Origin: a virus
Strand: one strand, 5' to 3'
IMG/VR virus record: IMGVR_UViG_3300017745_000083
Coordinates: 1 to 20,043 of that record
DNA: 20,043 nt
Shown: one piece after another, positions 2,177 to 15,924 of the stretch
Position numbering within the stretch: the first letter of the stretch is position 1
How the letters are laid out: each line of letters begins with the position of its first letter
Made by a program: the position numbers and the translations under genes
The notes under the pieces: generated by a model
Told to the model about the DNA's origin: nothing
Seen by the model: only the letters and a program-made list of their open reading frames with translations
The model's database searches: none

Positions 2177-2189
2177 TGTGCTACCCTTG

Positions 2190-2218: not shown

Positions 2219-2252
2219 TACACTTTGTTGTCTTACTGTAGGAGTGTCTGTC

Positions 2253-2384
2253 ATGGAAGAAGTTAAATATTGTACGAATAAAGACTATTGTACTTGTGGT
2301 AAGGATGATGTATCTATAGATAATAATATATGCAATTGTAAATGTTGTAGAGAAGAAAGATCATCTGAACAAGAAGGAAACTAG
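2253..2384 (+). CDS. 43-aa cysteine-rich protein (possible metal binder)
   Basis: The frame extends upstream to 2178, but the ATG at 2253 is preferred. GGAG lies eight bases before it, and the longer form would begin upstream of the predicted promoter. The 43-residue product has seven cysteines within 26 residues, at 7, 13, 15, 27, 29, 31 and 32, as CxC and CxCxCC clusters, with acidic and lysine residues between. Such spacing is typical of metal-binding or metallothionein-like peptides; a disulphide-rich fold is the alternative. No named family is recognised. It is the first gene of the rightward block, one base before the next gene. A role in packaging, as a small terminase partner, cannot be excluded, but nothing shows it. 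Confidence 0.65.
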   Translation: MEEVKYCTNKDYCTCGKDDVSIDNNICNCKCCREERSSEQEGN

Positions 2385-2385
2385 T

Positions 2386-2634
2386 ATGTGGAAGATAGTA
2401 ATTTTTATGGTTATGGGTATTACCGCAGATCAAGATATATATCCACTAACAAGTAATGAAGCTGATACTATGGTTATTACTCACTATAATGGAAAGCCAT
2501 TAGATTTTAAGACACAAGAAAAATGTTATGCACATATGTGGGAAAATATAGAAGCTATAAAAGAATATGCTTCATCAAGGTTTGAAGGTAAACCAGTAAG
2601 ACAAATTATTTGTTCACAGCAAACAGAAATATAA
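2386..2634 (+). CDS. 82-aa hypothetical protein with hydrophobic N-terminus
   Basis: An AAGGAAA ribosome site precedes the ATG by about six bases. The protein starts MWKIVIFMVMGITADQD, a short hydrophobic stretch that could be a weak signal or anchor. An acidic helical middle (ENIEAIKEYASSRFEG) follows. Two cysteines at 47 and 76 could form a disulphide if the protein is exported. I know of similar short proteins from marine phages but no assigned function. It lies between the cysteine-rich gene and the large terminase, one base after the former and one base before the latter, so all three should share a transcript. The position is where a small terminase often lies, but it does not resemble one. 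Confidence 0.75.
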   Translation: MWKIVIFMVMGITADQDIYPLTSNEADTMVITHYNGKPLDFKTQEKCYAHMWENIEAIKEYASSRFEGKPVRQIICSQQTEI

Positions 2635-2635
2635 A

Positions 2636-4234
2636 ATGTCAGATTACCCAGAGGAAGAGAAGCTGACTGCTAGTCAAGAAGAGGCTAGACAAGAACAAGA
2701 ATTTAAGTACGCTACTCTTCTTCAAGTAAGAAATAATTTAAAAAACTTGGTTGCTCAGAAGTGTAGAAAAGACTTTCTTACATTTGTGAGAATGGTAGCG
2801 CCTACCCTAATATCTGATTGGGAAATGGGCAGACACATAGAAGTAATATCTAGTAAGCTACAGCAAGTAGTGGAAGGAAAAGTAAAACGCCTTATGGTGT
2901 TTCTTCCACCACGTAGTAGTAAATCAGTAATATGCTCTAAGTTATTTCCTGCATGGTATATAGGTAAAAATCCTAATCACGAAATACTTACAGTCAGTCA
3001 CTCAGATCAACTATCCAGTGACTTCGGTAGATCAGTCAGAGATATCGTAGGAACAGAAGAATTTATGGATATGTTTCCTGGGGTAAACCTGAGACAGGAT
3101 GTACGTGCAGCAGGTAAGTGGAAGACAAACCTGAATGGTAGTTATTATGCTGCAGGTGTTCGTAGTCAGATTGCAGGTCGTGGCGCACACGTAGCTATCC
3201 TTGATGATGCAATGTCTGAAGAAGATAGTTTCTCTGATGCAGGAAGAAGGTATATCAAGGAATGGTGGCCTTCAGGACTACGCACACGTATCATGCCTAA
3301 CGGTGCAATAATTATTATTAATACTCGTTATCATTATGATGACCTTTGCGGATGGCTGCTAAAGCAGCAAGAGAAGTTTGACATAGATACAGAGATGCGG
3401 TGGGATGTAGTAAGCATACCTGCATGGGTGGACGAAGACTCCAGTAAATTACTAGGCTTACCTGTAGGAACAAGTTACTTTCCTGAGTGGAAAACAGATA
3501 AAGTTCTTAAACAGGATGAGATGGAGATACGGTCTACCAATGGATCAAAGTACTGGGAAAGCCTGTACATGCAGAATCCTACACCAGATGAAGGTAGTCT
3601 GATTAAGAAAGAATGGGTTAGCTGGTGGGAATACGGTGATCCTCCTGGTTGTGATTTTATTCTACAGACTTACGATACAGCTTTCTCTACAAAGACAACT
3701 GCAGACTATTCAGTAATACAAACATGGGGTGTATTTTATTTTCATGATGATAATACTGAAACAGGTGAAGAGAATGTAGCATCTAATATTATACTGTTAG
3801 GAAGTAAACGAGGCAGGTATGAGTATCCTGATCTAAGGCGTATAGCACGGGAAGAGTACAGAAAACATAGGCCAGATTTTTGTCTGGTAGAAAAGAAGGC
3901 TAGTGGTCAGTCGTTGATACAGGACATGCGTAGAAGTGGCTTACCTGTTTTAGAATATACACCTGACAGAGACAAAGTTAGCAGAGTTATATCTGCATCT
4001 CCTATGATGGAGTCAGGAAGAGTATGGCTACCAGATGGTAAAAGCTGGTCAAATGAATTATATGAAGAAATGATAATGTTCCCTTATGGTAAACACGATG
4101 ACCAAGTTGATGCTATGACGATGGCTATTCACTACATAAAAGATAGCTGGCGTTTAGAACATCCAGATGATCCTGATTGGGAAGACGATCAAGGTTATAG
4201 AAGTCAGAAGCGAGTTGCGTACTGGCGAGTTTAA
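2636..4234 (+). CDS. terL: terminase large subunit
   Basis: This is the packaging motor and nuclease that pumps DNA into the procapsid through the portal and cuts it. The 532-residue length is normal. The ATPase half has a Walker A-like LPPRSSKS (about 90-97), a Walker B AILDD (187-191) and a coupling motif NTRYHYDD (229-236). The nuclease half has acidic residues in YDTAF (D347), VEKKASG (E419) and HDDQVDA (D488, D492), as expected of an RNase H-like fold. The Walker A is unusual in having Ser-Ser instead of the usual Gly before Lys-Ser, and Walker B ends in DD rather than DE. The start at 2636 directly follows the stop of the 82-aa gene. No strong ribosome site is visible, so coupling to the upstream gene is likely. 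No recognisable small subunit gene is in the window. Confidence 0.97.
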   Translation: MSDYPEEEKLTASQEEARQEQEFKYATLLQVRNNLKNLVAQKCRKDFLTFVRMVAPTLISDWEMGRHIEVISSKLQQVVEGKVKRLMVFLPPRSSKSVICSKLFPAWYIGKNPNHEILTVSHSDQLSSDFGRSVRDIVGTEEFMDMFPGVNLRQDVRAAGKWKTNLNGSYYAAGVRSQIAGRGAHVAILDDAMSEEDSFSDAGRRYIKEWWPSGLRTRIMPNGAIIIINTRYHYDDLCGWLLKQQEKFDIDTEMRWDVVSIPAWVDEDSSKLLGLPVGTSYFPEWKTDKVLKQDEMEIRSTNGSKYWESLYMQNPTPDEGSLIKKEWVSWWEYGDPPGCDFILQTYDTAFSTKTTADYSVIQTWGVFYFHDDNTETGEENVASNIILLGSKRGRYEYPDLRRIAREEYRKHRPDFCLVEKKASGQSLIQDMRRSGLPVLEYTPDRDKVSRVISASPMMESGRVWLPDGKSWSNELYEEMIMFPYGKHDDQVDAMTMAIHYIKDSWRLEHPDDPDWEDDQGYRSQKRVAYWRV

Positions 4235-4243
4235 TATTATAAT
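4215..4243 (+). promoter_or_regulatory. candidate promoter before the portal gene
   Basis: TTGCGT (4215-4220) and a perfect TATAAT (4238-4243) are 17 bases apart, at the end of the terminase gene and within the 44-base gap before the portal ATG. The -35 match is only 3/6, and the region is AT-rich. Confidence 0.35.
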
Positions 4244-4278
4244 TAAAAATTATTTATTTAGCAAAGGTAACACATAAT

Positions 4279-6798
4279 ATGGCAACTGAACGTAATCCCT
4301 TTGACCCTATTCCACAAGTTCAAGTTACTCAGATAGAGATTGAACCAGAAAGTGATGAGGCTACTATCGAATACGATGATTCTGATGGCGGCGTTATAGT
4401 AGAATTTAAAAACCCAGTAGAAGAACTTTTGTCTGATGAGCAAGTAGAAGAAACAGATGATGAGTTTTACAGAAACTTGGCAGATGATATAGATGAAGAT
4501 ATTCTGCAAGATATTGCTGAAGAAGTTTATGATAATTTTACAGCAGATAAAGATAGTCGTGGTGAATGGGAAAGTATGTTCGAGCGTGGCTTTGATCTTC
4601 TTGGTCTAAAGCTGGAAGAAGCCTCTGAACCTTTTGAAGGTGCGTGTACTGCAGTCCATCCTGTGCTTATTGAGTCAGCAGTTAAGTTTCAATCTAAAGC
4701 TACACAAGAATTATTCCCTGCAAGTGGACCTGTTAAGTCCCAGATTATAGGAAATGTATCAGAAGAAAAAGAAGATCAGGCACAACGTGTAGAAGAATTT
4801 ATGAACTATCAGGTTACTGACCAAATGTCAGAATACTTTGATGAGTTTGAAAGGATGCTGTTCCATTTACCTTTGATAGGTTCTGCATTTAAAAAGATTT
4901 ACTTTGATTCAGGTCTAAATCGTCCTGTATCTGAGTTTGTACCTATAGATCAGTTCTATGTTTCCTACTATGCTACAGATTTACGCCGTGCAGACAGGTA
5001 TACCCACGTAATTTACCGCTCTCCAGTAGAAATGCGTAGAGATATTGCTGCAGGTATGTATGATGACATAGAATTACCTGAAGCATCTACCCCACAAACT
5101 ACTGCAATGTCCCAAAAGATGGACAATATTATGGGTTTATCGCCATCTAGCGACAATGACCCACAGTATGTGCTATTAGAACAGCATTGTTATCTAGATT
5201 TAGAGGGATTTGAGGATGATGAAGATGTTGCTCTTCCATATATTGTAACAATAGAGGAAAAAAGCAGGAAAATACTATCTATTCGTAGGAATTATGACAG
5301 AGATGACCCACGAAAAGAGAAGAAAATCTTCTTTACACACTATCGTTTTGTACCTGGATTTGGTTTTTATGGTCTAGGACTGATACATTTCTTAGGTAAT
5401 CTTACCATGACAGCAACTGCAGCTATGCGTAGCCTAGTAGATGCTGGTCAGTTTGCTAATTTACCTGGAGGTTTCAAAGCAAAAGGTATGCGTATCGTAG
5501 GAGATAATGATCCTATATCTCCTGGTGAGTTTAAAGAAGTAGAGGCTACAGGTAATGACATCTCTAAGATGATTATTAACTTGCCTTATAAAGAACCTTC
5601 ACAAACACTTCTACAAATGCTCAACTTTGTAACTGGTACAGCGCAAAAGTTTGCAGACAGTACAGAACAAGTTGTAGCTGATGGTGTTAACTATGGTCCT
5701 GTAGGAACTACGATGGCATTGCTAGAAGCGAGTAGTAAATTCTTTAGTGCTATTCATAAACGCTTACACAAATCTCAGAAAGAAGAGTTTAAACTTCTAG
5801 GAAGAATTAACTTTGAATATCTTCCTGATGAATCTATGTGTGATATTCCTAATGGCACACTAAAAGTATTTCGTAGTGACTTTGATGGCAGGATTGATAT
5901 TATTCCTGTGTCTGATCCTAATATCCCATCCTCTGCTCATCGTATGATGATGGCACAACTTGCACTTCAACTATCTCAGTCATCACCTCCAGGTATGTTT
6001 GATATTGAAGAGTTAAATAAAACAATTCTTAATGCGGCAAATATTCCTAATCTAGACAAAATTATGCCAAGCAAGCCAAAGCCTGTACCTCTTGATCCTG
6101 TAAGTGATATTGCTGCGGCAGTTAAAGGTATGCCTATTAAAGCATTTCCTGGTCAAAACCATGATGCTCATATTCAAGTTAAAACTATGTACTTACAAGA
6201 CCCTGCTAATGGTGCTAATCCGTTAATGAAACGTATCGCACCTATTTTAGAAGCTAATATGCAGGAACATATGATGTTAAAATATCAGGAACAAATTACT
6301 GGTATTACAGAAAATATGATTTCCACATATGGCAATGAAGCAGAACAGCAGGGCATTGATCCTAATAGTCCTGATCTAATTGAAGCAGTTATGGCTACTG
6401 CTGCTCAACAAGTTCTTCAGGCTAATCAAGCTGCTGCTATGCAACAACAAGCTATGTCACCTGAAGCACAACTTGTTCAGATTGAAGCACAAAAACTTGG
6501 TATTGAACAACAGAAAGTTCAAGGACAAGCAGCAAAAGAAGCAGTCAATGCTGCTAATAAACAACGTGAACTTGATCTTAAAGAACTACAGATTCAACTA
6601 GACATGTTCAAAGAGGGTGCTAATATTACAGCTAAAGCAGAAGATTCAGAGCGAGATAGAGAATCTAAGAAAGCTATCGCTGCTATGGACGCTCTACTTG
6701 AATTAGCAGATACAGAAGCTAATATTGACAGAGATAAAACTCTTAAAGCTGCAGATATGCTAAGTAAGTTTATTTCTGATAAAGATAAAGGATCGTAA
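4279..6798 (+). CDS. portal protein (P22-like, long form)
   Basis: The dodecameric portal sits at one capsid vertex, takes DNA from the terminase and later binds the tail adaptors. At 839 residues it is on the long side, as in P22-type portals. Residues 1-80 are strongly acidic. The core starts with GRGEW-like and EPFEGACTAVHPVLIESAV (117-135) segments typical of marine phage portals, and the ring domain runs to about residue 660. The last 170 residues are Gln/Ala/Lys-rich and helical, which suits a barrel extending into the capsid. AAAGGT lies about 13 bases before the ATG. The gene follows the terminase by 44 bases, and its TAA shares one base with the next ATG. Identification rests on position, length and recalled similarity. 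Confidence 0.9.
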   Translation: MATERNPFDPIPQVQVTQIEIEPESDEATIEYDDSDGGVIVEFKNPVEELLSDEQVEETDDEFYRNLADDIDEDILQDIAEEVYDNFTADKDSRGEWESMFERGFDLLGLKLEEASEPFEGACTAVHPVLIESAVKFQSKATQELFPASGPVKSQIIGNVSEEKEDQAQRVEEFMNYQVTDQMSEYFDEFERMLFHLPLIGSAFKKIYFDSGLNRPVSEFVPIDQFYVSYYATDLRRADRYTHVIYRSPVEMRRDIAAGMYDDIELPEASTPQTTAMSQKMDNIMGLSPSSDNDPQYVLLEQHCYLDLEGFEDDEDVALPYIVTIEEKSRKILSIRRNYDRDDPRKEKKIFFTHYRFVPGFGFYGLGLIHFLGNLTMTATAAMRSLVDAGQFANLPGGFKAKGMRIVGDNDPISPGEFKEVEATGNDISKMIINLPYKEPSQTLLQMLNFVTGTAQKFADSTEQVVADGVNYGPVGTTMALLEASSKFFSAIHKRLHKSQKEEFKLLGRINFEYLPDESMCDIPNGTLKVFRSDFDGRIDIIPVSDPNIPSSAHRMMMAQLALQLSQSSPPGMFDIEELNKTILNAANIPNLDKIMPSKPKPVPLDPVSDIAAAVKGMPIKAFPGQNHDAHIQVKTMYLQDPANGANPLMKRIAPILEANMQEHMMLKYQEQITGITENMISTYGNEAEQQGIDPNSPDLIEAVMATAAQQVLQANQAAAMQQQAMSPEAQLVQIEAQKLGIEQQKVQGQAAKEAVNAANKQRELDLKELQIQLDMFKEGANITAKAEDSERDRESKKAIAAMDALLELADTEANIDRDKTLKAADMLSKFISDKDKGS

Positions 6799-6989
6799 TG
6801 GAATTTTGGGACGAGTTAAATTTAAAGTTTGAAGAAAAGATAGAAGAAACAAAAAAATCTCTTGCGTATGGAAACGCCTCTAGTTACGATGAGTATCGTC
6901 AAGCAGTAGGTCTTATAGAAGGAATTGAATTTGCACAAGACTTACTAAAGTACATAGTTAAAAATCGAATATATGAGGAAGAAGATTAA
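6798..6989 (+). CDS. 63-aa conserved hypothetical protein between portal and co-chaperonin
   Basis: A small, acidic, fully helical-looking protein that begins MEFWDELNLKFEEKIEETKK and ends YEEED. I recall similar short proteins next to the portal gene in uncultured marine phages, without a known role. Its ATG overlaps the portal stop (TAATG), and its own stop overlaps the GroES-like start in the same way, so the three are translationally linked. A head-assembly accessory role is possible from position alone. It contains no cysteine, membrane segment or enzyme motif. Confidence 0.8.
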   Translation: MEFWDELNLKFEEKIEETKKSLAYGNASSYDEYRQAVGLIEGIEFAQDLLKYIVKNRIYEEED

Positions 6990-7408
6990 TGCAAGCTGTT
7001 CAATTAGAAAAGTCAATCAATAATTCAGACTGGACAAATCCAGATAGTAGTTTAATTGATGTAAACGATTTACCAGATATTCCTGGTTATCATATTTTAG
7101 TTCAACCAGTTTTTGTAAAAGAAAAAACTAAAGGTGGTATTATTATCCCAGAAAAATTAAAGGATGATATCGCATACCTTACCACTGTAGGCAGAGTTTT
7201 AAAGCTAGGAGACTTAGCTTATAAGGATAAAGAAAAGTTTCCTTTAGGTGAGTGGTGCGCTACAGGTGACTATGTTTGTTACGGAAAATTTACTGGACAA
7301 AAATTAGTATACAAAGGTCTTAAACTACTTCTTTTGTTTGATGACCAAATAATTATGCGAGTACAAAGTCCAGAATTATTAGATCCAACTTTTAATCTTT
7401 CTAATTAA
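6989..7408 (+). CDS. GroES-like co-chaperonin
   Basis: This is a phage-encoded 10-kDa chaperonin homologue that would cap host GroEL to fold capsid proteins, comparable in role to T4 gp31. The beta-barrel core is visible from about residue 25: DIPGYHILVQPV, then the mobile-loop region KEKTKGGIIIPEKLKD (about 45-60), which should contact GroEL. It continues with TVGRVLKLGD, a turn with DYVCYGKFTG, and the closing strand LLLLFDDQIIMRV. The 139 residues exceed the usual 95-100 because of an N-terminal extension of about 22 residues and a short C-terminal tail. It sits between the portal and scaffold genes, just where the head proteins are made. Its ATG overlaps the preceding stop (TAATG). Confidence 0.9.
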   Translation: MQAVQLEKSINNSDWTNPDSSLIDVNDLPDIPGYHILVQPVFVKEKTKGGIIIPEKLKDDIAYLTTVGRVLKLGDLAYKDKEKFPLGEWCATGDYVCYGKFTGQKLVYKGLKLLLLFDDQIIMRVQSPELLDPTFNLSN

Positions 7409-7409
7409 T

Positions 7410-7438
7410 TTGTATATCTATACTTAATACTATAAAAT
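7410..7438 (+). promoter_or_regulatory. candidate promoter before scaffold and capsid genes
   Basis: TTGTAT (7410-7415) and TAAAAT (7433-7438) are 17 bases apart, the same -10 and spacing as the candidate at 2190. It lies in the 97-base gap upstream of the scaffold gene, a place where extra capsid transcription would make sense. Confidence 0.35.
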
Positions 7439-7446
7439 ATAGTTAA

Positions 7447-7480
7447 GGCGTAGGATAAACCTCAATTCGTTAGGTTCGCC
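7447..7480 (+). other. stem-loop in the scaffold leader
   Basis: GGCG (7447-7450) can pair with CGCC (7477-7480), and inside it AACCT (7458-7462) pairs with AGGTT (7472-7476), leaving a one-sided bulge of seven bases. No T-run follows, so it is not an intrinsic terminator. It could be an mRNA-stabilising or processing structure ahead of the scaffold ribosome site. Confidence 0.35.
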
Positions 7481-7505
7481 ACTAGCGGTATGTAAAGGAA
7501 AAGTA

Positions 7506-8510
7506 ATGAGTGATAATCAAGAAGAATGGTCAACCATTGAAGTAGGTGGTGAAGAAAAACAAAAAGCTGTTGAATTTGAAGTTGAAGGTGAAGAAGTTCA
7601 AGAAGAACCTATTCAAGCTGTAGTAGAAGAAAAAGTAGAAGAAGTACAAGAAGCTGCACAGCCAGAAGAACAAGCTGAAGATAAACAACAGCCAGTAAAA
7701 GAATTAGAAGGTATTGAGACTAAAGGCGCGGAAAAGCGTATAAGACAACTAATTCGTCAACGTAAAGAACGCGACGAAAAACTTCAGAAGATGGAAGAGC
7801 GTCTTAATACACTTCAAGGTGAACTACAACAAAAAGAAGAACAGTTATCTACTTCTATAAAAAGTTCTATTGATAGTAGTGAAGTTCAATTAAATAATAA
7901 TTTAGAGTCTGCTAAAAGTATTTATAAACAAGCCATTGAAAGTGGTGATGTAGATGCTCAAGTTGCAGCACAAGAAAATATTAGTAAAGCATATGCTGAA
8001 CTTAGTCAAGTTAATAATCAGCGTACAGCATTAGAAAATTATAGTACACAGGTAGAGCAACAACAGGTAAGTCAGCCACAACAACAATCACCTAAGTATG
8101 ATCCTAAAGCTGTTGATTGGGCAGCTAAGAATGATTGGTTTGGCAAGGATCAGATAATGACTACTGCAGCTTTATCTATAGATCAAGAATTAAAAGATGA
8201 GGGATATGATCCTTCTGATGACGACTTTTATGGGGAAATTGATAGCAGACTACGCAGTCGATATCCTCAAAGATTTCAGGCTACTCCTACTCAAGAACCT
8301 GAAACACCTCGTTTGCAGGATACATCGTCAAATTCTGCTCAAGTGGTAGCTGGTGCATCACGCACACCTAAAACCTCTAAGAGTAACAAAGTTAAACTAA
8401 CTCAAGAAGATGTTCGTTTAGCTAATAAGTGGGGAATATCACTTGAAAAGTATGCTGCTGAAAAGCTTAAAGTTGAAAAAGCTGAAGGCGATTACACAAG
8501 CATTTATTAA
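7506..8510 (+). CDS. probable scaffolding (capsid assembly) protein
   Basis: A scaffold directs capsid protein into procapsids and then leaves. The 334-residue protein has the typical build. Residues 1-75 are extremely Glu/Gln/Val-rich. A charged coiled coil follows at about 76-115 (RIRQLIRQRKERDEKLQKM), then a second helical segment at 125-190 and a Gln-rich linker (184-196). The DWAAKNDWFGKDQIMTTAA segment (204-222) is one I associate with capsid assembly proteins of marine podoviruses. The C-terminus is basic and helical (VKLTQEDVRLANKWG, 296-310), as expected for the capsid-binding end. AAAGGAAAAG precedes the ATG. Position between portal and capsid genes agrees. Confidence 0.8.
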   Translation: MSDNQEEWSTIEVGGEEKQKAVEFEVEGEEVQEEPIQAVVEEKVEEVQEAAQPEEQAEDKQQPVKELEGIETKGAEKRIRQLIRQRKERDEKLQKMEERLNTLQGELQQKEEQLSTSIKSSIDSSEVQLNNNLESAKSIYKQAIESGDVDAQVAAQENISKAYAELSQVNNQRTALENYSTQVEQQQVSQPQQQSPKYDPKAVDWAAKNDWFGKDQIMTTAALSIDQELKDEGYDPSDDDFYGEIDSRLRSRYPQRFQATPTQEPETPRLQDTSSNSAQVVAGASRTPKTSKSNKVKLTQEDVRLANKWGISLEKYAAEKLKVEKAEGDYTSIY

Positions 8511-8534
8511 TTAAGCGTGGAAGGAAAAATTACA

Positions 8535-9017
8535 ATGGCACGAAATACAAACTCACGTAGTACAAGCACTAGGGAAGCTAAACCTCGTAGGACATTTGAA
8601 GAACCAAATTGGTTAGACATACCACCTACTGTACAAGAACGATTCAAAAGTGAAGGCATGTCTTTGCGTTGGATTCGTATGACTATCAAAGGCAATGACG
8701 ATATTCAAAATATGAGTAAACGTCAAGCAGAAGGTTGGGAGATAGTTCAGTCCGAGGAAGTTCCCGAAATGACACACTCCTCTGTCGTGAGAGAGGAAGG
8801 ACGATATTCAGGAGCAGTCTGTCGTGGAGACTTGGCTTTGGCAAAAATGCCAACTGACCTAGCTGAATCGCGTCAAGAATTTTATGAACAAAAAAGTAGG
8901 GAAGCGGTAGGCGCTGTAAACGCACAACTAATGCGTAATTCAGATTCACGTATGCCAATTTCAAACTCTAGTCGTTCAAGGGTAACTACAGGAAGGCAAC
9001 CTTCTTTTCAAGAATAG
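8535..9017 (+). CDS. conserved head-module protein of unknown function (160 aa)
   Basis: The frame could begin at a GTG at 8517, but GGAAGGAAA lies inside that extension at the right distance from the ATG at 8535, so the ATG is chosen. The start is basic and Ser/Thr/Arg-rich (NTNSRSTSTREAKPRR). A conserved part follows with WLDIPPTVQERF (26-37), LRWIRMTIKG (44-53), and GAVCRGDLALAKMPTDLAE (92-110). I recall this family directly upstream of marine podovirus capsid genes but know no function. It could be a minor head protein or an assembly factor. The gene ends immediately before a hairpin that covers the next gene's ribosome site. Confidence 0.8.
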   Translation: MARNTNSRSTSTREAKPRRTFEEPNWLDIPPTVQERFKSEGMSLRWIRMTIKGNDDIQNMSKRQAEGWEIVQSEEVPEMTHSSVVREEGRYSGAVCRGDLALAKMPTDLAESRQEFYEQKSREAVGAVNAQLMRNSDSRMPISNSSRSRVTTGRQPSFQE

Positions 9018-9057
9018 CTTTTCCTGTTTGTCATCGTAACTTTAAAACAAGGAAAGG
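9018..9057 (+). promoter_or_regulatory. hairpin sequestering the ribosome site of the next gene
   Basis: Bases 9018-9029 pair with 9045-9057 (12 pairs, one G-T, one bulged A at 9050) around a 15-base loop. The right arm contains GGAAAGG, the ribosome site of the gene at 9067. The stem starts one base after the previous stop codon (9015-9017), so a ribosome finishing the upstream gene would open it. No T-run follows, so it is not a terminator. Confidence 0.5.
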
Positions 9058-9066
9058 AATAGTGTT

Positions 9067-9654
9067 ATGACTGATACTAAAGCACTAAACGGCCTTACTC
9101 CTTCTCGCAAACGTGGAGGTGCATCAAACAGCACTGCTACGAATGAATATCCCATTGCAAGTGGTTTCGGAACCAATATCTTCAGTGGCGATATCGTATG
9201 TAACGTAGCTGGAAATGTGGTCGTTTTAAGCGTTTCAACCCAAAAAGCTATAGGTGTTTTTCAGGGTTGTAAGTACACTGCTAACGGTGAAATTAAGTAT
9301 GCTAACTATTGGCCTAGCGGAACGTCATCTGATGATGCGGTAGCATTTGTTGTTGATGATCCACAAGCTACCTTTGTAGTTCAAGCTGATGCTTCTGTCA
9401 CCGCTGGTGATATTATGTCAAAGAACTTTAGTTGTACATTAGGTGCAGGTTCTACAGTAACTGGTCGTTCAGGCTTCGGAATCGAAGCTGCTTCTCGCAC
9501 TGATACTACAGGTGGTATGCTTCGTGCTATCTCTGTATTAAATGAGCCAGGAAACGATATTACTGTTGCTGCTGAACGTGCTTTCCCTAAAGTCGAAGTT
9601 CGTATTGTACGTCATGTGGATGCTTATATATCCGCTGATTCGTCAGCTAACTAA
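9067..9654 (+). CDS. conserved virion protein, probable capsid decoration (195 aa)
   Basis: The protein has the pattern of a beta-rich structural protein. A flexible N-terminus with LTPSRKRGGAS (10-20) is followed by YPIASGFGTNIFSGDIV (28-44). The long Gly/Val/Ala-rich body includes GVFQGCKYT and VDDPQATFVVQAD and ends in VEVRIVRHVDAY. I recall this family next to major capsid genes in marine phages, usually called hypothetical or virion-associated. A head decoration or capsid stabilising role is inferred from position and composition; there is no direct proof. The ribosome site GGAAAGGA lies inside a hairpin, which suggests its yield depends on translation of the upstream gene. It precedes the capsid gene by 18 bases. 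Confidence 0.75.
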   Translation: MTDTKALNGLTPSRKRGGASNSTATNEYPIASGFGTNIFSGDIVCNVAGNVVVLSVSTQKAIGVFQGCKYTANGEIKYANYWPSGTSSDDAVAFVVDDPQATFVVQADASVTAGDIMSKNFSCTLGAGSTVTGRSGFGIEAASRTDTTGGMLRAISVLNEPGNDITVAAERAFPKVEVRIVRHVDAYISADSSAN

Positions 9655-9672
9655 GGAAGGGAGTAATAACAA

Positions 9673-10617
9673 ATGGCTATTAATCGCTCTAGTATTGCGA
9701 AAGAACTGCTCCCAGGATTAAACGCTGTATTTGGTATTGAATACAATGATGTGGACAACGAACATGCTCCACTCTTTGATGTTGAACAATCAGATCGTGC
9801 GTTTGAGGAAGAAGTTCTATTCACCGGCTTCGGTACAGCACCTGTTAAAAGTGAAGGTGCTGCTGTTCAGTTTGATGATGCACAAGAAGGCTATGCTTCT
9901 CGTTACAGTCACGAGACAATAGCTCTTGCTTTTGCAGTAACTGAAGAAGCTATGGAAGACAATCTCTATGATACTTTTGCTAAACTACGTGCGCGTGGTC
10001 TTGCCCGTGCAATGGCAAACACTAAACAAGTTAAAGCTGCTGATGTTTTCAACAATGGCTTTGCGGCAGGAAGTCCTGGTGGGGACGGACAGCCTTTCTT
10101 TAGTGCAAGCCATCCGATAGTTGGTGGTGGTACACAATCAAACACTCTTGGTGCTACTGATCTTTCAGAAGCATCTCTTGAGTCTGCATTGATTACCATT
10201 TCAAAAGCAGAAGATGATCGTGGTATTCTTATTGGTCTACAAGTCGAGTCACTTCATGTGCCTTCGGATCTTGCTTTTACAGCAGACCAAATCTTGAATA
10301 GCACAATGTCAACAACGATTGGGGTTAACCCAACTACTGCTGCAAACGGTGCAACGAATGTAAACGACATTAATAGCATTCGTAATCAGGGTCTAGTTCC
10401 TGGTGGCTTTTATGTAAACCGTAGGTTCCAAGATGGCAACGCTTGGTTCTTGCGTACTGATTGCCCAAATGGTGCTAAGATGTTTGTACGTGCGCCTCTT
10501 CAAACTAAGATGGAACCTGACTTCGATACAGGCAATCTTAGATTTAAAGCGCGTGAGCGTTACAGCTTTGGCTTCTCTGATTGGCGTAGCTATTACGGTG
10601 CTTCAGGTTCTTCCTAA
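9673..10617 (+). CDS. major capsid protein (HK97 fold, Mu gpT-like)
   Basis: This is the main shell protein. The 314 residues have the expected order. An N-terminal helix (LLPGLNAVFGIEY) leads into the extended E-loop region with FTGFGTAPVKSEG (about 51-63). SHETIALAFAVTEEAMEDN follows (79-97) before the long spine helix, which continues through YDTFAKLRARGLARAMANT. The P-domain and A-domain segments include FFSASHPIVGGG and RNQGLVPGGFYVN, and the end is FGFSDWRSYYGAS. The motifs agree with the Mu gpT-like capsid family found in marine podoviruses. A strong ribosome site, GGAAGGGAG, lies before the ATG, as expected of the most abundant product. A strong terminator follows. No protease gene or obvious cleaved delta domain is seen. 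Confidence 0.93.
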   Translation: MAINRSSIAKELLPGLNAVFGIEYNDVDNEHAPLFDVEQSDRAFEEEVLFTGFGTAPVKSEGAAVQFDDAQEGYASRYSHETIALAFAVTEEAMEDNLYDTFAKLRARGLARAMANTKQVKAADVFNNGFAAGSPGGDGQPFFSASHPIVGGGTQSNTLGATDLSEASLESALITISKAEDDRGILIGLQVESLHVPSDLAFTADQILNSTMSTTIGVNPTTAANGATNVNDINSIRNQGLVPGGFYVNRRFQDGNAWFLRTDCPNGAKMFVRAPLQTKMEPDFDTGNLRFKARERYSFGFSDWRSYYGASGSS

Positions 10618-10646
10618 GTTCCGTTTAAATTAAGCTGAATTAAGTG

Positions 10647-10691
10647 AGGGTGGAGAGAGAGAAATAAAGTTCTTTTTCTTCACCCTTTTTT
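10647..10691 (+). terminator. long-stem intrinsic terminator after the capsid gene
   Basis: AGGGTG plus a GA-rich arm (10647-10663) pairs along 17 positions, three of them G-T, with 10670-10686. The loop is six bases (10664-10669), followed by a T-run at 10687-10691. It lies 30 bases after the capsid stop and would separate head from connector gene expression. Confidence 0.85.
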
Positions 10692-10714
10692 AATTACCAT
10701 TATTGTTATATAAT
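10686..10714 (+). promoter_or_regulatory. weak promoter candidate before the connector block
   Basis: A perfect TATAAT (10709-10714) lies just after the terminator. The only -35 at 17 bases is TTTTTT (3/6 or fewer matches), overlapping the T-run. AT-rich context makes this uncertain, but a promoter after a strong terminator is logical. Confidence 0.3.
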
Positions 10715-10752
10715 GTAACTAATTAAATTCTCTTTATGTAAAGGAATATAGT

Positions 10753-11058
10753 ATGGCAACTACTATCCGACAGGGATTTGTAACAGGAAGCGGTGCAGTT
10801 CTTGATACTGTAACCAGTGTTTCTCTTGAAGATACTCGTATACGTTCTGTGTTTGCAACAGGTATAGGCCAGTTTCTTATTACTGGTACTACTACTAGTC
10901 CATCAGGAACAGTTATAGGTAATAATATTAGATTTGTAAATACTACAGCATGTGATGCAAATGATGTTTACTTTTCTGATTTAGGTGTACCAATGAAAGG
11001 AACAGTTAGAGTTTCTGCTCCAGCTTCAACAGCTACAATAGCAGTATTCTATGGTTGA
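10753..11058 (+). CDS. 101-aa hypothetical protein, beta-rich
   Basis: AAAGGAAT lies about six bases before the ATG. The product begins MATTIRQGFVTGSGAVLDTV and alternates short hydrophobic strands with Gly, Thr and Ser, like small virion surface or tail proteins. It has one cysteine (in TTACDANDVYF) and no membrane or enzyme motif. It is the first gene after the capsid terminator, and its end overlaps the next ATG by eight bases. Its position, between capsid and connector genes, suggests a head or neck component. No family is recognised. Confidence 0.75.
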   Translation: MATTIRQGFVTGSGAVLDTVTSVSLEDTRIRSVFATGIGQFLITGTTTSPSGTVIGNNIRFVNTTACDANDVYFSDLGVPMKGTVRVSAPASTATIAVFYG

Positions 11059-11707
11059 TTATACTTATCTAGTAAACGACATTATTCAGGCATCTGAAAA
11101 CGAAGGTACAGAATTTATTAATTATATTCCTAATATGGTTAATCGTGCTGAAGAACGCTTGACAAAGGATCTAGATGATTATGGTTTAGTTAGCTACACT
11201 TCTGTTGCAGTTTCCTCTGGTAAGAATCTTTTAACTTTACCTACAGGAACACGTATAGTTAAGAACATTAATATTGTAAGTAACTCTACAAAAATTAATT
11301 TACTTCAAAGAACAGATGAATACTTAAATGACTATTGGCCTGTAAGTGCGTCAACAGAAGAACCAAGATATTATGCACCTCGTAATAACTCTACAGTTTT
11401 AATAGCACCTACTCCTGCATCTACTTACAGTGGACAGGTTGTGCATGTTAATCGCCCAGTAACATTAACATCTGCAACTCCTGAAAATTACTTTACTGAT
11501 TTTTGTTACGATCTTCTTTATAGTGCTTCTATGGTAGAGGCAATGATGTTTCAAAAAGACTATCCCACTTCACAATTATATGAACAACGATATGCACAGC
11601 TTTTAGAGTTACAGCGTAATCAGGCACGTAGAACACGTAGAGATGATATGCAAACTCCTGCAAGTCCTGCTGGCGCAGATGACAATCTGATAGCTAATAC
11701 TAATTAA
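11051..11707 (+). CDS. adaptor-like head-to-tail connector protein (218 aa)
   Basis: The arrangement is that of phage adaptor proteins of the SU10/P22 gp4 type, which form the ring under the portal. An N-terminal helical part (about 1-45, with NMVNRAEERLTKDLDDYGL) is followed by a beta insertion that includes LLTLPTGTRIVKNINI (60-75). A P..Y-type segment (EPRYYAPRNNSTVLIAPTPAS) leads to long C-terminal helices (YDLLYSASMVEAMMF and YEQRYAQLLELQRNQARR). A second protein of this kind lies at 15250. Whether both form rings, or one has another role, is open. The start overlaps the 101-aa gene by eight bases. The call rests on recalled family architecture. Confidence 0.7.
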   Translation: MVDYTYLVNDIIQASENEGTEFINYIPNMVNRAEERLTKDLDDYGLVSYTSVAVSSGKNLLTLPTGTRIVKNINIVSNSTKINLLQRTDEYLNDYWPVSASTEEPRYYAPRNNSTVLIAPTPASTYSGQVVHVNRPVTLTSATPENYFTDFCYDLLYSASMVEAMMFQKDYPTSQLYEQRYAQLLELQRNQARRTRRDDMQTPASPAGADDNLIANTN

Positions 11708-11718: not shown

Positions 11719-12015
11719 ATGGCTGGTCCTATCTTTGATCCTCTTAATCCTAATGAAAGTCCTGCTACAAAGTATCAAAGAGAAATTGATGCTATGAATA
11801 AAAGAGGTGGCAAAAGAAAAAAATCTGAGGATGAAGAGTTTGATGAAGCTTATGAAAAGCAACAAGCAAACATGCCTACCTTTGAAAAATTAATGTCAGC
11901 GCAGGGTGAGTCTGCTGGTGGCCGTGTAGGAGAAGGTAAGAAAAAAAAGGTTGTAGTTAAAAAAAGAGCTAACTTTTTAGGTCGTGGAGCAGGTGCTGCT
12001 TTGCGCGGCTTTTAA
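11719..12015 (+). CDS. 98-aa lysine-rich protein with GGRVGEGKKKKV motif
   Basis: AAAGGAG sits seven bases before the ATG. The N-terminal half is charged and probably unfolded (DPLNPNESPATKYQREIDA, then GGKRKKSEDEEFDEAYEKQQ). The C-terminal third is basic: GGRVGEGKKKKVVVKK (about 67-82), then LGRGAGAALRGF. The same ending, GG[RK][IV]G.GKKKKV plus an A[AM]LRGF-like tail, recurs in the next gene, so the two share a C-terminal module. This is the first member of a run of basic proteins that extends to 15033. No family name or proven function is known to me. A virion-internal or DNA-binding role is a guess from charge and location. Confidence 0.75.
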   Translation: MAGPIFDPLNPNESPATKYQREIDAMNKRGGKRKKSEDEEFDEAYEKQQANMPTFEKLMSAQGESAGGRVGEGKKKKVVVKKRANFLGRGAGAALRGF

Positions 12016-12030
12016 TTAAGGGAGAATATT

Positions 12031-12738
12031 ATGGCAAGTAATACTGAAAAAAGGCTTAAAGCAGCAGAAAAACGTCGATTAACAGCTAATGAAAAAAAAT
12101 ATATTGATTCTATTGTTAGAGATGAAGATACTAGTAATAAAAAATTAGGTCTACTAAGTAAGCATCCATATTATAAAGCTTCTGTAAAAAGAGCAGAGAG
12201 AGAAATAGAAGTAAGAAAAGATAGAGCAAAAAAAGGTAAACCTCCTGAAACTATCTTTGAAAAAGCTAAAAGACAAAGAGAAGAAAGTGATGCTGCTAAA
12301 GCTAAAGCTAATTTAAAAAAACAAAAACCTGTTAAAAAACCTGATAAAACGGCTGCTCAAATAGCTGCTGAAGCAAATGTTAAAAAATCTATAGGTAAGG
12401 CTGCTAACAGAGTTTCTAAAAAAGAATCCGCTCCTAAAAAAGAAGGTAGTGAATACAAAGCATATCCTGGTGCGGCTGGAAGAGCAGGGTTTGAGTATAG
12501 AAGAGATACAGCAGAAATTTTAGATGACAAAAACATTTCTGATGAAATTAAAGAAAGAATAGAAGAAGAAGAACTTTATGAAGGTGACTTTAAAGGTGGT
12601 CGTATAGGAAAGGGTAAAAAGAAAAAAGTAAGTAAAGCACCTCGCGGTGTTCGCGCTGCAATGAGAGGTTTTAAAACAATGAAAATTGGTGGTAAAGTAG
12701 GTAAACGTACTAGAGGTACAGGAGGTAGTTGGGTTTAG
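12031..12738 (+). CDS. 235-aa lysine-rich coiled protein with repeated GG-K motifs
   Basis: AGGGAG precedes the ATG. Residues 1-120 are a nearly continuous Lys/Glu/Ala helix (KRLKAAEKRRLTANEKKYI at the start, then KRQREESDAAKAKANLKK). A short less charged segment follows (AYPGAAGRAGFEYRRDTAE, about 144-162). The end carries the shared modules GGRIGKGKKKKVSKAPRG (190-207), RAAMRGF, and GGKVGKRTRGTGGSWV. The two GG motifs match those in the 98-aa and 62-aa neighbours. DNA of this gene is unusually rich in AAA codons. A nucleic-acid-associated virion protein is plausible but unproven; there is no recognised domain. Confidence 0.75.
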   Translation: MASNTEKRLKAAEKRRLTANEKKYIDSIVRDEDTSNKKLGLLSKHPYYKASVKRAEREIEVRKDRAKKGKPPETIFEKAKRQREESDAAKAKANLKKQKPVKKPDKTAAQIAAEANVKKSIGKAANRVSKKESAPKKEGSEYKAYPGAAGRAGFEYRRDTAEILDDKNISDEIKERIEEEELYEGDFKGGRIGKGKKKKVSKAPRGVRAAMRGFKTMKIGGKVGKRTRGTGGSWV

Positions 12739-12740
12739 GT

Positions 12741-12929
12741 ATGGATAAACAAAGCAATGATTCATTAAAAAGTGTACCTGAAGATAATGTAGGTCTTAGT
12801 AAACTTCCAACATCTGTTCGTAATAAGATGGGATATATGAAAAAGGGAGGTAAGGTTGGTAAACCTTTAGGTTGTGGAGTTGCACAAAAAGGTTTTGGTA
12901 AAGGACCATATAAGAAACAAGGGACTTAG
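12741..12929 (+). CDS. 62-aa basic protein with GGKVGKPLGCG motif
   Basis: A TTG at 12729 could extend the frame by four codons, but it overlaps the previous gene end and sits too near the GGAGG at 12721. The ATG at 12741 is preferred although its spacing from GGAGG is long (about 15). The N-terminus is mixed (NDSLKSVPEDNVGLSKLPTS). The C-terminus is MKKGGKVGKPLGCGVAQKGF followed by GKGPYKKQ. I recall this GGKVGKPLG.G.AQ.GFGK tail in many small marine phage proteins, with no known function. The lone cysteine lies inside the conserved motif. Confidence 0.7.
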   Translation: MDKQSNDSLKSVPEDNVGLSKLPTSVRNKMGYMKKGGKVGKPLGCGVAQKGFGKGPYKKQGT

Positions 12930-12932
12930 AAA

Positions 12933-13121
12933 ATGAAAAAGAAAGCTGTTCGTAAATCTAAAGTTAATCAAGCTGGTAACTATACTAAACCTACTATGCG
13001 TAAAAGATTATTTAATAAAATTAAAGCTGGCAGCAAGGGTGGCAATAGTGGTCAGTGGAGTGCAAGAAAAGCACAAATGCTGGCAAAACAATATAAAGCT
13101 GCAGGTGGTGGATACAAGTAA
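12933..13121 (+). CDS. 62-aa strongly basic protein with KGGNSGQWSARKAQ motif
   Basis: The product has no acidic residue at all and about one third Lys/Arg. Its second half, KIKAGSKGGNSGQWSARKAQ plus LAKQYKAAGGGYK, matches a short domain that I recall from phage and marine bacterial proteins as a domain of unknown function (possibly DUF5872; the number is from memory). It starts three bases after the previous stop with only a weak ribosome site, and ends two bases before the next ATG, so coupled translation is likely. The charge suggests nucleic acid contact, which is inference. Confidence 0.75.
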   Translation: MKKKAVRKSKVNQAGNYTKPTMRKRLFNKIKAGSKGGNSGQWSARKAQMLAKQYKAAGGGYK

Positions 13122-13123
13122 AG

Positions 13124-13684
13124 ATGGCTTTAAAGAAATCACAAAAGAGTTTAAAGGATTGGACAAAGCAAAAGTGGCGTACAAAGTCAGGAAAGCCTTC
13201 AGCTAAAACAGGTGAGCGTTATCTACCATCTAAAGCTATAGCGGCATTGTCTCCTGCTGAATATGCTGCTACAACTAGAAAGAAAAAGAAAGATACTAAA
13301 AAAGGAAAACAATTTTCTAAACAACCTAAATCTGTTGCAAAGAAAACAAAAGCTTTTAGAAAAAAAGGTGGGACTGTGGCAGCTAAAAAGAAAAAGAAAA
13401 TTACTGGTAAAGGCATGAAAGGTCTTACTATTGGTAAGGGAGACAAGCGTCCTACAAAAGCTGGTGCAGGTCTAAGTGCTAAAGGGGTAGCAAAATACAG
13501 AAGACAAAATCCTGGCAGTAAACTTAAAACTGCTGTTACTGAATCTAAACCTCGTACTAAATCAAGAGCAGCTAGACGTAAGTCATATTGTGCTAGATCA
13601 GCAGGGCAAATGAAGAAGTTTCCTAAAGCTGCAAAGAATCCTAACTCAAGACTTAGACAAGCTAGAAGAAGGTGGAAGTGTTAG
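13124..13684 (+). CDS. 186-aa highly basic protein, DUF6321-like C-terminus
   Basis: I count 63 Lys/Arg and six acidic residues in 186. Two conserved parts are visible. Residues about 9-80 (SLKDWTKQKWRTKSGKPSAK, GERYLPSKAIAALSPAEYA, then GKQFSKQPK) form one block. The second runs from about 112 to the end (KAGAGLSAKGVAKYRRQNPG, RAARRKSYCARSAGQMKKF, and a final RRRWKC). The second part resembles a marine phage domain I recall as DUF6321. A lysine-rich linker with KKGGTVAAKKKKK joins them. Cysteines occur only in SYCAR and the last position. It sits in the cluster of basic genes, one base before the next ATG. Function is unknown; DNA or RNA binding would fit. Confidence 0.8.
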   Translation: MALKKSQKSLKDWTKQKWRTKSGKPSAKTGERYLPSKAIAALSPAEYAATTRKKKKDTKKGKQFSKQPKSVAKKTKAFRKKGGTVAAKKKKKITGKGMKGLTIGKGDKRPTKAGAGLSAKGVAKYRRQNPGSKLKTAVTESKPRTKSRAARRKSYCARSAGQMKKFPKAAKNPNSRLRQARRRWKC

Positions 13685-13828
13685 ATGGTAAAACAATTAA
13701 AAAAAGTTTCTAAAGCTTTATCTAAAGCCTCTCGTTTACATAAGAAACAATCTAATATCATTAAAAACTATGTGAAGAAAAATGAGAAAAGTAAAAGACC
13801 CAAAAGTAGGAACAGGAAAAAAACCTAA
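13685..13828 (+). CDS. 47-aa basic micro-protein overlapping the next gene
   Basis: The ATG follows the previous TAG at once, and the frame runs to TAA at 13826-13828, overlapping the next gene by 47 bases in another frame. It encodes MVKQLKKVSKALSKASRLHK, a helix, then a Lys/Arg-rich tail (KNEKSKRPKSRNRKKT), with only one acidic residue. I recall similar short KAL.KAS..H peptides in marine phage contigs. The immediate coupling, the charge and the otherwise empty 97-base gap support a real gene. Function is unknown. Confidence 0.65.
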   Translation: MVKQLKKVSKALSKASRLHKKQSNIIKNYVKKNEKSKRPKSRNRKKT

Positions 13829-14075
13829 AGGTTCTGGTCGTAGACTTTATACAGATGAAAATCCAAAGGATACAGTGGGTATAAAGTATGCTACAGTTAA
13901 AGATGCTAGAGATACTATTGCAAAAGTTAAAAGGATAAGAAAGCCATATGCAAGAAAGATACAGATATTAACAGTATTAGAACAACGTGCAAAGTTTGCA
14001 AAGAAGCCTGAACAGTCTAGGTTGGCAAAAGTTGCTAAAGAAACATTAAGAAAGAAACATAAAAGTAAAAAATAA
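13782..14075 (+). CDS. 97-aa conserved basic protein (KDPKVGTGKKPKGSGRRLYT family)
   Basis: The N-terminus KDPKVGTGKKPKGSGRRLYT followed by DENPKDTVGIKYAT is a very conserved pattern I associate with marine phage genomes. It continues with VKDARDTIAKVKRIRKPYAR and KIQILTVLEQRAKFAKKP, and ends in a basic helix. The protein is small and basic, with no cysteine and no enzyme motif. It overlaps the 47-aa gene by 47 bases and ends one base before the next ATG. The high conservation I recall suggests an essential virion or assembly role, but none is documented to my knowledge. Confidence 0.8.
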   Translation: MRKVKDPKVGTGKKPKGSGRRLYTDENPKDTVGIKYATVKDARDTIAKVKRIRKPYARKIQILTVLEQRAKFAKKPEQSRLAKVAKETLRKKHKSKK

Positions 14076-14076
14076 A

Positions 14077-14766
14077 ATGTCATATTTAAGTTCAAACATC
14101 CCACAGTTTAAATGTTGGGTACGAAAAGAATTTACTAATAACCACATGGACTACGAAGGAGAATATTTACACGCTTTAGTAATTGCAGTTAATACAATAC
14201 CAGATAGATCATTAACTTTTAATGTTGTATTTACTGGGTGTGATGAAGAAGAGAATGTACATGGTGGAGCAATGTGGGCAAGAATGCCTATTACAGCTTT
14301 AGTGGCTGATACTAGATTAGAAGAATGGCCTAATAAAATGCCCACACATTTAGCACAACCTTGGGATTGTTCTTCTAGAAATCATGCAGTCATAGTTATG
14401 GACAGAGTATCATCAAGTCCTTGGTTATGTAAGATAGACAATGTTTTTTATACTGGAAGATATTTGTTTACAGTAGATTATACGGATAGTTCTATATCAG
14501 ATGATCCTGCACAACATAAACAGTCACATGTTTTAGAATTAATTGATGCAGGACAATATACTGGTAATATTGTAGCACTACCGAATAATAGAGTAAGAGT
14601 AACTAATCCTGCTTTGTGGGTAACTGGTGAAGGCGCACCAGACTTTGCACCAAGTCAGTATGTACACTCAGCAGAAATACACGATAGCTATATGAATCCA
14701 TATTTAACTTTTAACAATTTATATCAAGAGGAGAATGAAGATGCCAGGACACACAAAAAAAAGTAA
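14077..14766 (+). CDS. 229-aa conserved phage protein of unknown function
   Basis: This is a soluble, compositionally ordinary protein within the basic cluster. It contains IPQFKCWVRKEF (8-19), a run of beta-like segments such as HALVIAVNTIPDRSLTFNVV, GGAMWARMPITALV (63-76), QPWDCSSRNHAVIVMDR, and a late VTNPALWVTGEG. It has four cysteines and no transmembrane segment. I recall homologues in uncultured marine phages at the same position, described only as hypothetical. Structural use in the neck or tail is inferred from context. Its last 26 bases overlap the start of the 53-aa repeat protein. Confidence 0.8.
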   Translation: MSYLSSNIPQFKCWVRKEFTNNHMDYEGEYLHALVIAVNTIPDRSLTFNVVFTGCDEEENVHGGAMWARMPITALVADTRLEEWPNKMPTHLAQPWDCSSRNHAVIVMDRVSSSPWLCKIDNVFYTGRYLFTVDYTDSSISDDPAQHKQSHVLELIDAGQYTGNIVALPNNRVRVTNPALWVTGEGAPDFAPSQYVHSAEIHDSYMNPYLTFNNLYQEENEDARTHKKK

Positions 14767-14902
14767 ATACATGTCAAAGATGAAAAAAGGCGGTTCTATG
14801 AAAAAGAGCAAGTACATGTCTAAAGGTGGCGCAATGAAAAAGAGCAAGTACATGTCTAAGGGCGGTGCTGTAGGCAAAGCACCTCATAATCGCCTCTACT
14901 AG
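14741..14902 (+). CDS. 53-aa repeat protein, three KKSKYMSK units
   Basis: A strong site, AGAGGAGA, lies before the ATG at 14741, inside the end of the previous gene. The product is built from three copies of KKSKYMSK starting at residues 6, 21 and 33, joined by Gly-Gly linkers (MKKGGSM, GGAM, GGAVGK), and ends APHNRLY. It has no acidic residue. The last two units are also near-identical in DNA over 36 bases, so they arose by recent duplication. Similar short GG/K/M repeat peptides occur in marine phages, function unknown. DNA condensation or capsid interior binding would suit the charge but is speculation. Confidence 0.75.
   Translation: MPGHTKKSKYMSKMKKGGSMKKSKYMSKGGAMKKSKYMSKGGAVGKAPHNRLY
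14797..14870 (+). repeat. 36-base tandem duplication in the 53-aa gene
   Basis: Two adjacent copies of a unit starting ATGAAAAAGAGCAAGTACAT (about 14800 and 14836) differ by only a few third-position changes near their ends. They encode the second and third KKSKYMSK units. A more diverged first unit lies at about 14756-14779. Confidence 0.75.
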
Positions 14903-14904
14903 TA

Positions 14905-15033
14905 ATGGCAATAAACAGATCAAAGATAAGCCAACAGATTATCAAAGCGCCGTCTAAAAGAAAAAAAGGTAATAAATTAATTAAGTCACTTGCTTTAAAA
15001 ACTAATAGACGGCGTAAATCTAGAAGGAGATAA
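14905..15033 (+). CDS. 42-aa arginine/lysine micro-protein
   Basis: The frame runs from the ATG at 14905, two bases after the previous stop, to TAA at 15033. The product begins MAINRSKISQQIIKAPSKRK and ends KTNRRRKSRRR. It has no acidic residue and about 40 percent Lys/Arg, like a protamine or an RNA-binding arginine-rich peptide. A tight fit between neighbours, with only two bases on each side, supports a real gene. No separate ribosome site stands out, so coupling to the 53-aa gene is likely. Function is unknown; it is the last of the strongly basic products in the cluster. Confidence 0.65.
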   Translation: MAINRSKISQQIIKAPSKRKKGNKLIKSLALKTNRRRKSRRR

Positions 15034-15249: not shown

Positions 15250-15924
15250 ATGGCTACTAGTGGAACATACGACTTCTCAATGGATATTGATGAAGTTATT
15301 CAAGAAGCAACAGAGATGATTGGTGGTGAGCAGACACTAGGACACGAACCTAAGTCTGCTCGTAGGTCAATTAATCTTCTTCTCCAAGATTGGCAGAACC
15401 GTGGTATTCTTCTTTGGACTGCTGGTACAACTGCTATTTCAGTCTCTACCAGTGTAACATCTTATGCTTTAACTTCAAGTACTATTGATGTTACTGAGGC
15501 AGTTCTTAGAAGAGATAATGTTGATCTTCAACTTGAGCGTATTACGATGGAAGAGTATTTAAAGATTCCTCGTAAGAGTCAGACAGGTAGACCTAATCAA
15601 TATGCTATTCGCAGAGGTAGAGATAATCCTACTTTATTTCTTTGGCCTGTACCTGAAAATACTACAGACATTCTAAAGCTAGAGAAAGTTAAGTACACAG
15701 AGGATGTAAACAAGTCTGCTGGTCAAACTGCAGATGTATCTCGTAGGTTCCTTCCTTGCCTTACTACAGGTCTAGCTTACTACATGGCTATGAAACGTCC
15801 TGGTACAGATGCAGGTCGTGTTGGTCTTCTTAAAGCAGAATATGAAGAACGTCTTATGAATGCTATGCATGAAGACAGAGAAAGAGCAAGTGCTTATTTC
15901 TTACCTAGAATAAATAGGGTATAA
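15250..15924 (+). CDS. P22 gp4-like tail adaptor protein
   Basis: Proteins of this kind form a ring of twelve under the portal and seal the packaged head before the tail nozzle joins. The 224-residue product has an N-terminal helical pair (DIDEVIQEATEMIGG, then RRSINLLLQDWQNRGILLW, about 37-55). A beta insertion carries SYALTSSTIDVTEAVLR and RPNQYAIRRGRDNPTLFLWP (115-134). The C-terminal helical domain holds RRFLPCLTTGLAYYMAMKRP, YEERLMNAMHEDRERAS and the final FLPRINRV. This order agrees with the gp4-type adaptors I know from podoviruses. A related connector-like protein is encoded at 11051. The next gene begins after two bases. Confidence 0.8.
   Translation: MATSGTYDFSMDIDEVIQEATEMIGGEQTLGHEPKSARRSINLLLQDWQNRGILLWTAGTTAISVSTSVTSYALTSSTIDVTEAVLRRDNVDLQLERITMEEYLKIPRKSQTGRPNQYAIRRGRDNPTLFLWPVPENTTDILKLEKVKYTEDVNKSAGQTADVSRRFLPCLTTGLAYYMAMKRPGTDAGRVGLLKAEYEERLMNAMHEDRERASAYFLPRINRV

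Follow-up and report, generated by a model that had tools for sequence, protein, structure and literature searches.

A variable cassette of small basic genes between two head-tail adaptor genes of a podovirus lineage, with a possible role as cargo of the phage head

A cluster of small, mostly lysine-rich genes lies at positions 11719-15033 of IMG/VR virus record IMGVR_UViG_3300017745_000083, a linear stretch of 20,043 bases (hereafter the window) that is probably a fragment. The gene order of the window runs from terminase through portal, a GroES-like co-chaperonin, a scaffold-like gene, the major capsid gene and an adaptor to the basic cluster, followed by a second adaptor and the tail genes. 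The portal shares 38-42% identity with the portals of HTVC023P, HTVC027P, 023Pt_psg01 and the Roseobacter phages CRP-901/902. Both borders of the cluster match the Pfam family SU10_adaptor, namely the head-tail adaptor gene conn1 on the left (11051..11707; E 1.2e-18) and the second SU10-type adaptor gene conn2 on the right (15250..15924; E 3.2e-9; these and all genes of the cluster are on the plus strand). This agrees with an initial annotation, made from the sequence alone, which had placed the cluster between two connector-like genes and put the basic genes at eight or more, listing nine starts, with an ordinary gene among them; open reading frames (ORFs) are present at all the starts that it listed.

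The basic genes, here termed B1 to B7, B9 and B10, and the ordinary gene form the cassette. B1 (11719..12015; 98 residues) has a basic, tagged C-terminus (GGRVGEGKKKKV...GRGAGAALRGF), B2 (12031..12738; 235 residues), with an N-part unlike that of B1, carries GGRIGKGKKKKV...RAAMRGF...GGKVGKR near its C-terminus, and B3 (12729..12929; 66 residues), with a TTG start at 12729 and an internal ATG at 12741, carries the tag GGKVGKPLGCGVAQKGFGKGPYKKQGT. The strongly conserved B4 (12933..13121; 62 residues) matches phrog_17747 over its full length (E 8.9e-37) and corresponds to the N-terminal half of proteins encoded on bacterial chromosomes, a family that falls partly under DUF5872. B5 (13124..13684; 186 residues, of which 34% are Lys or Arg, as against the third estimated initially) is a two-part protein: residues 1-80 (hereafter B5N) match phrog_14910 (E 7.7e-38), and residues 115-184, ending in WKC, match DUF6321 (PF19846; 47.8 bits vs the Pfam cut-off of 28.5), the alignment of which shows an invariant Cys71 and a C-terminal Trp-x-Cys. 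B6 (13685..13828; 47 residues), a basic protein alike in size, place and character to gp41 of HTVC033P, overlaps B7 (13782..14075; 97 residues), which consists of a LYTDENPKxT module common to cyanophage polyproteins, with 16 invariant alignment columns. Downstream of the ordinary gene (14077..14766; 229 residues) follow B9 (14735..14902; 55 residues; position 14741, the start listed initially, is its codon 3), a lysine repeat protein ending in GGAVGKAPHNRLY with an NRLY tag, and B10 (14905..15033; 42 residues). The ordinary gene belongs to phrog_3704 and travels with the cassette (HTVC033P gp43, 29% identity). Its family (also L003, 27047-27691) has no Pfam match; the PHROG name "ferredoxin" was set aside because Pfam finds no ferredoxin and the family is labelled PurM in the relative HTVC023P.

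Net charge per residue is +0.06 for B1, +0.13 for B2, +0.14 for B3, +0.29 for B4, +0.31 for B5 and +0.25 for B7. B4, B9 and B10 contain no Asp or Glu at all, as had been read from their translations. The ordinary gene stands at -0.05, and the coding genes from 2178 to 11707 are neutral or acidic (-0.13 to +0.01). The description of the products as strongly basic is thus too strong for B1, which taken as a whole is only mildly basic, its C-terminus being the basic part. None of the databases and papers searched describes a function for any of the cassette proteins; a literature search found DUF6321 named in no paper and DUF5872 in one, in a gene table only.

Small ORFs in a genome of 36% GC might be AT-rich, lysine-prone frames that are no genes at all. 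In comparisons with relatives, however, the ratio of non-synonymous to synonymous substitution rates (dN/dS) was 0.11 for B4, 0.21 for B5, 0.21 for B7, 0.12 for B9 and 0.16 for B10, next to 0.11 for the major capsid gene, so that these five genes are under purifying selection at the level of capsid and connector genes. B1, B2 and B6 are less constrained (dN/dS 0.50-0.76; 2-4 pairs each). Together with Pfam and PHROG family matches and conservation in hundreds of phages and bacteria, these values rule out a compositional artefact, an explanation that we regard as having virtually no chance of being correct and as refuted already for B4, B5 and B7.

The interval between the two adaptor genes was compared across 22 related contigs in which both genes occur in the order of the window and the interval is spanned; the loci had been retrieved via genes of the cassette region, and counts therefore describe biased samples. 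The interval measures 0.7-4.7 kb and holds at least one basic gene in 22 of 22 contigs, such that the clustering between adaptor genes is kept in related phages. A net charge per residue above +0.08 was found for 113 of 150 interval genes as compared to 16 of 303 genes elsewhere, and one above +0.2 for 62 of 150 vs 2 of 303, while the gene families of the interval change from contig to contig. The interval is a hot-spot at which basic genes replace one another.

Several of these otherwise unrelated proteins share a C-terminal sequence. The initial annotation had pointed to a recurring GG-K motif and raised the possibility of a common capsid-targeting tag. The motif was found in B1 (residue 67), B2 (residues 189 and 220), B3 (residue 40) and B9 (residues 19/31/43), and forms the start of a longer C-terminal tag. 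B1 and B2 have a 12-mer in common with 10/12 identical residues, a similarity matched in 0/1000 shuffles of the same lysine-rich proteins, and use different codons at 5 of the 10 identical positions. Two regular expressions describing the tag matched 29 and 26 proteins, with 28/29 and 26/26 matches in the last 60 residues, and these proteins fall into 14 and 11 groups with unrelated N-parts. A second type of tag, with an NRLY ending, occurs on 8 groups, and two tagged proteins contain LysM domains. Nearly all tagged ORFs (56 of 58) adjoin at least one adaptor gene. Two come from stretches lacking an anchor, and no tagged ORF was found in any other interval. Identical tag residues are often encoded by different codons, with many synonymous differences, and since the amino acids are kept where codons differ, the sequences argue that the tag is kept by selection, not by recent copying. 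Tags on unrelated proteins are also more similar within a phage than between phages (0.60 vs 0.45; 0/2000 permutations), in keeping with a docking signal that a phage-specific partner recognises, although shared ancestry and recombination could contribute. The idea of a shared tag has therefore stood, with the shared element lying at the C-terminus.

A third candidate C-terminal tag, GG[SR][VI]..ERNPYG..R.LI, was observed on proteins encoded between portal and GroES genes (L093, 2825 and 3583; L099, 6233); all three start with ALSKL[VI]K and may be paralogues. Furthermore, a loop resembling an EF-hand, D[LF][ST]GDG[KE][IV]T[RKQ][KRA]D[VI]L.GRGV, recurs in several of the basic or tagged proteins (L131, 6882; L044, 9758; L084, 5761; L002, 20430).

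Cassette modules also occur in phages of other types. HTVC033P, whose portal shows no match to that of the window, holds homologues of B4, B5N, DUF6321, B7 and the ordinary gene together, in addition to a 42-residue basic gene like B6. In the T7-like P-SCSP1d, a DUF6321 gene lies between the major capsid and tail tube genes; a term search of the P-SCSP1u cryo-electron microscopy paper gave no passage on the DUF6321 gene. A basic family (GLYANIHAKRKR...KGAPT) comes after DUF6321 in both P-SCSP1d and HTVC033P, two unrelated phage types (L246, 9189-9365; L239, 11000-11131).

In T4-like cyanophages, DUF6321 ends long proteins whose genes adjoin those of the terminase (PHROGs 727, 3477 and 10346). 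These chains draw on a restricted repertoire of small modules, whose order varies (L247-L326, L231, L242-L245); one of the modules is homologous to the B7 family, with its 16 invariant columns. Separate genes of HTVC027P likewise match modules of P-SSM2 gp114 (gp52, E 3e-14; gp50, E 7e-6; gp49 weakly, E 0.003). Two such chains, both with DUF6321 above the Pfam cut-off, bear on packaging: S-CREM2 ORF137 was detected by mass spectrometry of virions (4 unique peptides; coverage 4.1%; PMC10665884 Table 3), and S-SCSM1 gp029 carries the record label "virion protein", the authors of that phage reporting virion mass spectrometry (PMC9602691). The virion-internal role proposed initially thus gains from reports of homologous proteins in purified cyanophage virions, but has to be set against the bacterial chromosomal family described below.

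The sequence between cyanophage modules resembles protease sites. Prohead proteases of the T4 type cleave short xxE motifs behind the Glu (PMC5694885, PMC9026906), and in 67 dereplicated chains the pattern [ILVM]xE[AGS] occurred 222 times, 2.3-fold above the 96.4 +/- 9.1 expected from 1000 shuffles (maximum 131). Replacing E in the pattern with D, K, Q, N, R or T gave no enrichment, and in other ORFs of the same loci the pattern was depleted (ratio 0.72). None of the 222 sites fell within module cores, though modules make up 27% of residues, and 101 of 157 sites lay at most 12 residues before a module start, as compared to 46 of 233 for other xxE[AGS] sites. The S-CREM2 capsid protein contains LLTE|APTQ near residue 56, the expected position of the T4-like maturation site. 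As the motif was picked after viewing the sequences and the chains share ancestry, the P-value is inexact and the controls are the stronger argument. Going by this pattern, the cyanophage modular proteins are probably processed by protease between modules; a literature search found no paper on combinatorial cyanophage modular proteins with [ILVM]xE[AGS] sites.

B4 and B5N are not confined to phages. The two are fused into one protein in some phages, and many bacteria of many phyla (Sphingomonas, Methylobacterium, Azospirillum, Pseudomonas, Chloroflexota, Actinomycetota) encode the fused form on their chromosomes, with about 50-75% identity to the fused phage version. B4 and B5N themselves have no Pfam match to DUF5872 (PF19197), which two of the bacterial fused homologues barely pass (28.0 and 27.9 vs the cut-off of 27.5). 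Some bacterial copies carry a C-terminal Rho_N domain, in one case exceeding the Pfam cut-off; as Rho_N domains of known proteins bind nucleic acid, this ending offers no more than a hint of nucleic-acid binding. The neighbourhoods of the bacterial homologues revealed no consistent partner gene, the top clusters being overlapping frames. A fused B4-B5N protein is predicted to be helical, with a predicted local distance difference test (pLDDT) score of 83, and sequence searches of solved structures yielded no match to cassette proteins.

Taken together, the conserved place, the charge, the tag, the shared modules and the virion reports of cyanophage DUF6321 proteins support the interval between the adaptor genes being a cargo cassette for head-packaged proteins, the reading that we favour by a modest degree. 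Packaging in these podoviruses, DNA contact, injection and a receptor for the tag are steps that we infer. Cassette proteins would enter the prohead as it assembles; those with a C-terminal tag would do so by the tag binding to scaffold, portal or shell. Judging by charge, the cargo might then lie among the packaged DNA with its lysines contacting phosphates; it would enter the cell along with the DNA and may act there on host nucleic acid or defences. T4-like cyanophages would make the modules as one chain to be freed by the prohead protease, and window-type podoviruses would make each module from its own gene, no prohead protease having been recognised among the scanned head genes of the window. 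It is conceivable, and we propose it tentatively, that there are two undescribed devices: a podovirus C-terminal loading tag (of the GG[KR][VI]..[RG]GxGxAxRGxGKA type and the NRLY-ending type) by which exchangeable proteins of unrelated sequence reach the head via a phage-specific receptor, and, in cyanophages, a combinatorial polyprotein with basic and Cys-rich modules, which the prohead protease cuts apart inside the prohead.

A number of observations count against packaging as cargo. The modules of HTVC033P, HMO-2011 and HTVC010P adjoin lysis genes (amidase, lysozyme or endolysin), not head genes, so that the head location noted initially holds as the usual one in the window lineage without being universal. 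The virion reports cover DUF6321 proteins, none of them B4 itself, and a literature search found no virion proteomics for any podovirus of the window's group. S-CREM2 ORF137 is net acidic overall (17% Asp plus Glu) and hence supports the module, not the charge; its low coverage comes from peptides without known position, and carry-over in caesium chloride is possible. That the gp029 label rests on the mass spectrometry of S-SCSM1 is something we infer. The chromosomal distribution of B4 and B5N in bacteria implies a basic function not tied to virions, the B4-B5N model has no fold match in the PDB, and the DUF6321 model, at a pLDDT of 70, is too weak for a fold search.

The bacterial homologues, some with Rho_N, would also suit late-expressed nucleic-acid-binding proteins that act unpackaged in the infected cell, on the host nucleoid, transcription or repair. 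Such a role, which would fit the movement of the cassette among phages whose head genes differ and its occasional place outside the head module, is unlikely but has to be taken seriously; DUF6321 proteins in purified virions speak against it, as do the conserved position between adaptor genes and the confinement of the tag to the adaptor interval, which is hard to explain for cytosolic proteins. Proximity to amidase, lysozyme or endolysin genes in the three phages above, small size, high charge and the LysM domains of some tagged proteins are what one might expect of lysis helpers, i.e. cationic peptides disrupting the outer membrane at the end of infection in the manner of disruptin (gp28 of phiKT). 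We consider this improbable given that B4 is constrained like a capsid protein and common to bacterial chromosomes, unlike a membrane-disrupting peptide, and given the head location in the window lineage and the virion reports. Finally, the place between two adaptor genes, near capsid genes in several phage types, might point to factors of head assembly or completion (minor capsid, scaffold-binding or neck proteins) whose charge serves protein contacts, not DNA. There is little to recommend this for an interval whose content varies greatly among close relatives, unlike assembly parts, and whose modules are interchangeable and found outside head modules as well.

Among known systems, head-packaged cargo finds its closest parallel in T4, whose head contains about 1000 internal proteins, with only lysines touching DNA phosphates, and whose internal proteins form a varied host-directed set having in common only a targeting sequence (PMC3012670). 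Like IPI-IPIII and Alt, the cassette comprises diverse small, lysine-rich, unrelated proteins with one short shared terminal signal, although packaging in the head is, on the side of the cassette, reported only for the cyanophage relatives. The T4 signal is an N-terminal capsid targeting sequence (CTS) of 10 residues, whereas that of the cassette is C-terminal, and CTS-like removal by protease is not known for the podovirus tag. No sequence relation was seen (none was tested), and several cassette modules are also bacterial. The long DUF6321 proteins of cyanophages include the C part of B5 as a member and a module homologous to B7, but the window encodes its modules singly or, in one gene, as a pair, an arrangement for which cleavage-like sites are not needed. 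B4 and B5N together match one bacterial chromosomal protein (partly DUF5872), from which the window version differs in being split into two genes and lacking Rho_N. The ejection proteins of T7 (gp14-16) and P22 (gp7, gp16, gp20) are likewise encoded near head-tail genes, and LysM occurs on some tagged proteins; however, searches of Pfam, PHROG and NCBIfam revealed no homology to known ejection proteins (T7, P22, N4), and the cassette proteins are much smaller and far more basic. The initial remark that no standard ejection proteins are visible permits no conclusion, as the window is a 20-kb fragment. Disruptin-type peptides are similarly small and cationic, and some cassette relatives lie near lysis genes, but the cassette shows strong sequence conservation, chromosomal homologues and a head-module location.

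Elsewhere in the window, the GroES-like co-chaperonin gene (6989-7408; phrog_3188) within the head module is kept in relatives. Positions 1-2177 contain no convincing plus-strand genes, and a few short minus-strand ORFs are present at 553-795, 1080-1229 and 1805-1978.

The cassette modules rank among the commonest unexplained marine phage genes, with at least 600 matches in each of two scans and DUF6321 in 458 phage records. If they are head cargo, large families without an assigned function in phages of SAR11, SAR116, Roseobacter and picocyanobacteria would acquire one, and there would be a testable list of candidates for what marine phages deliver along with their DNA. The C-terminal tag might then also be usable for loading proteins into small phage heads.

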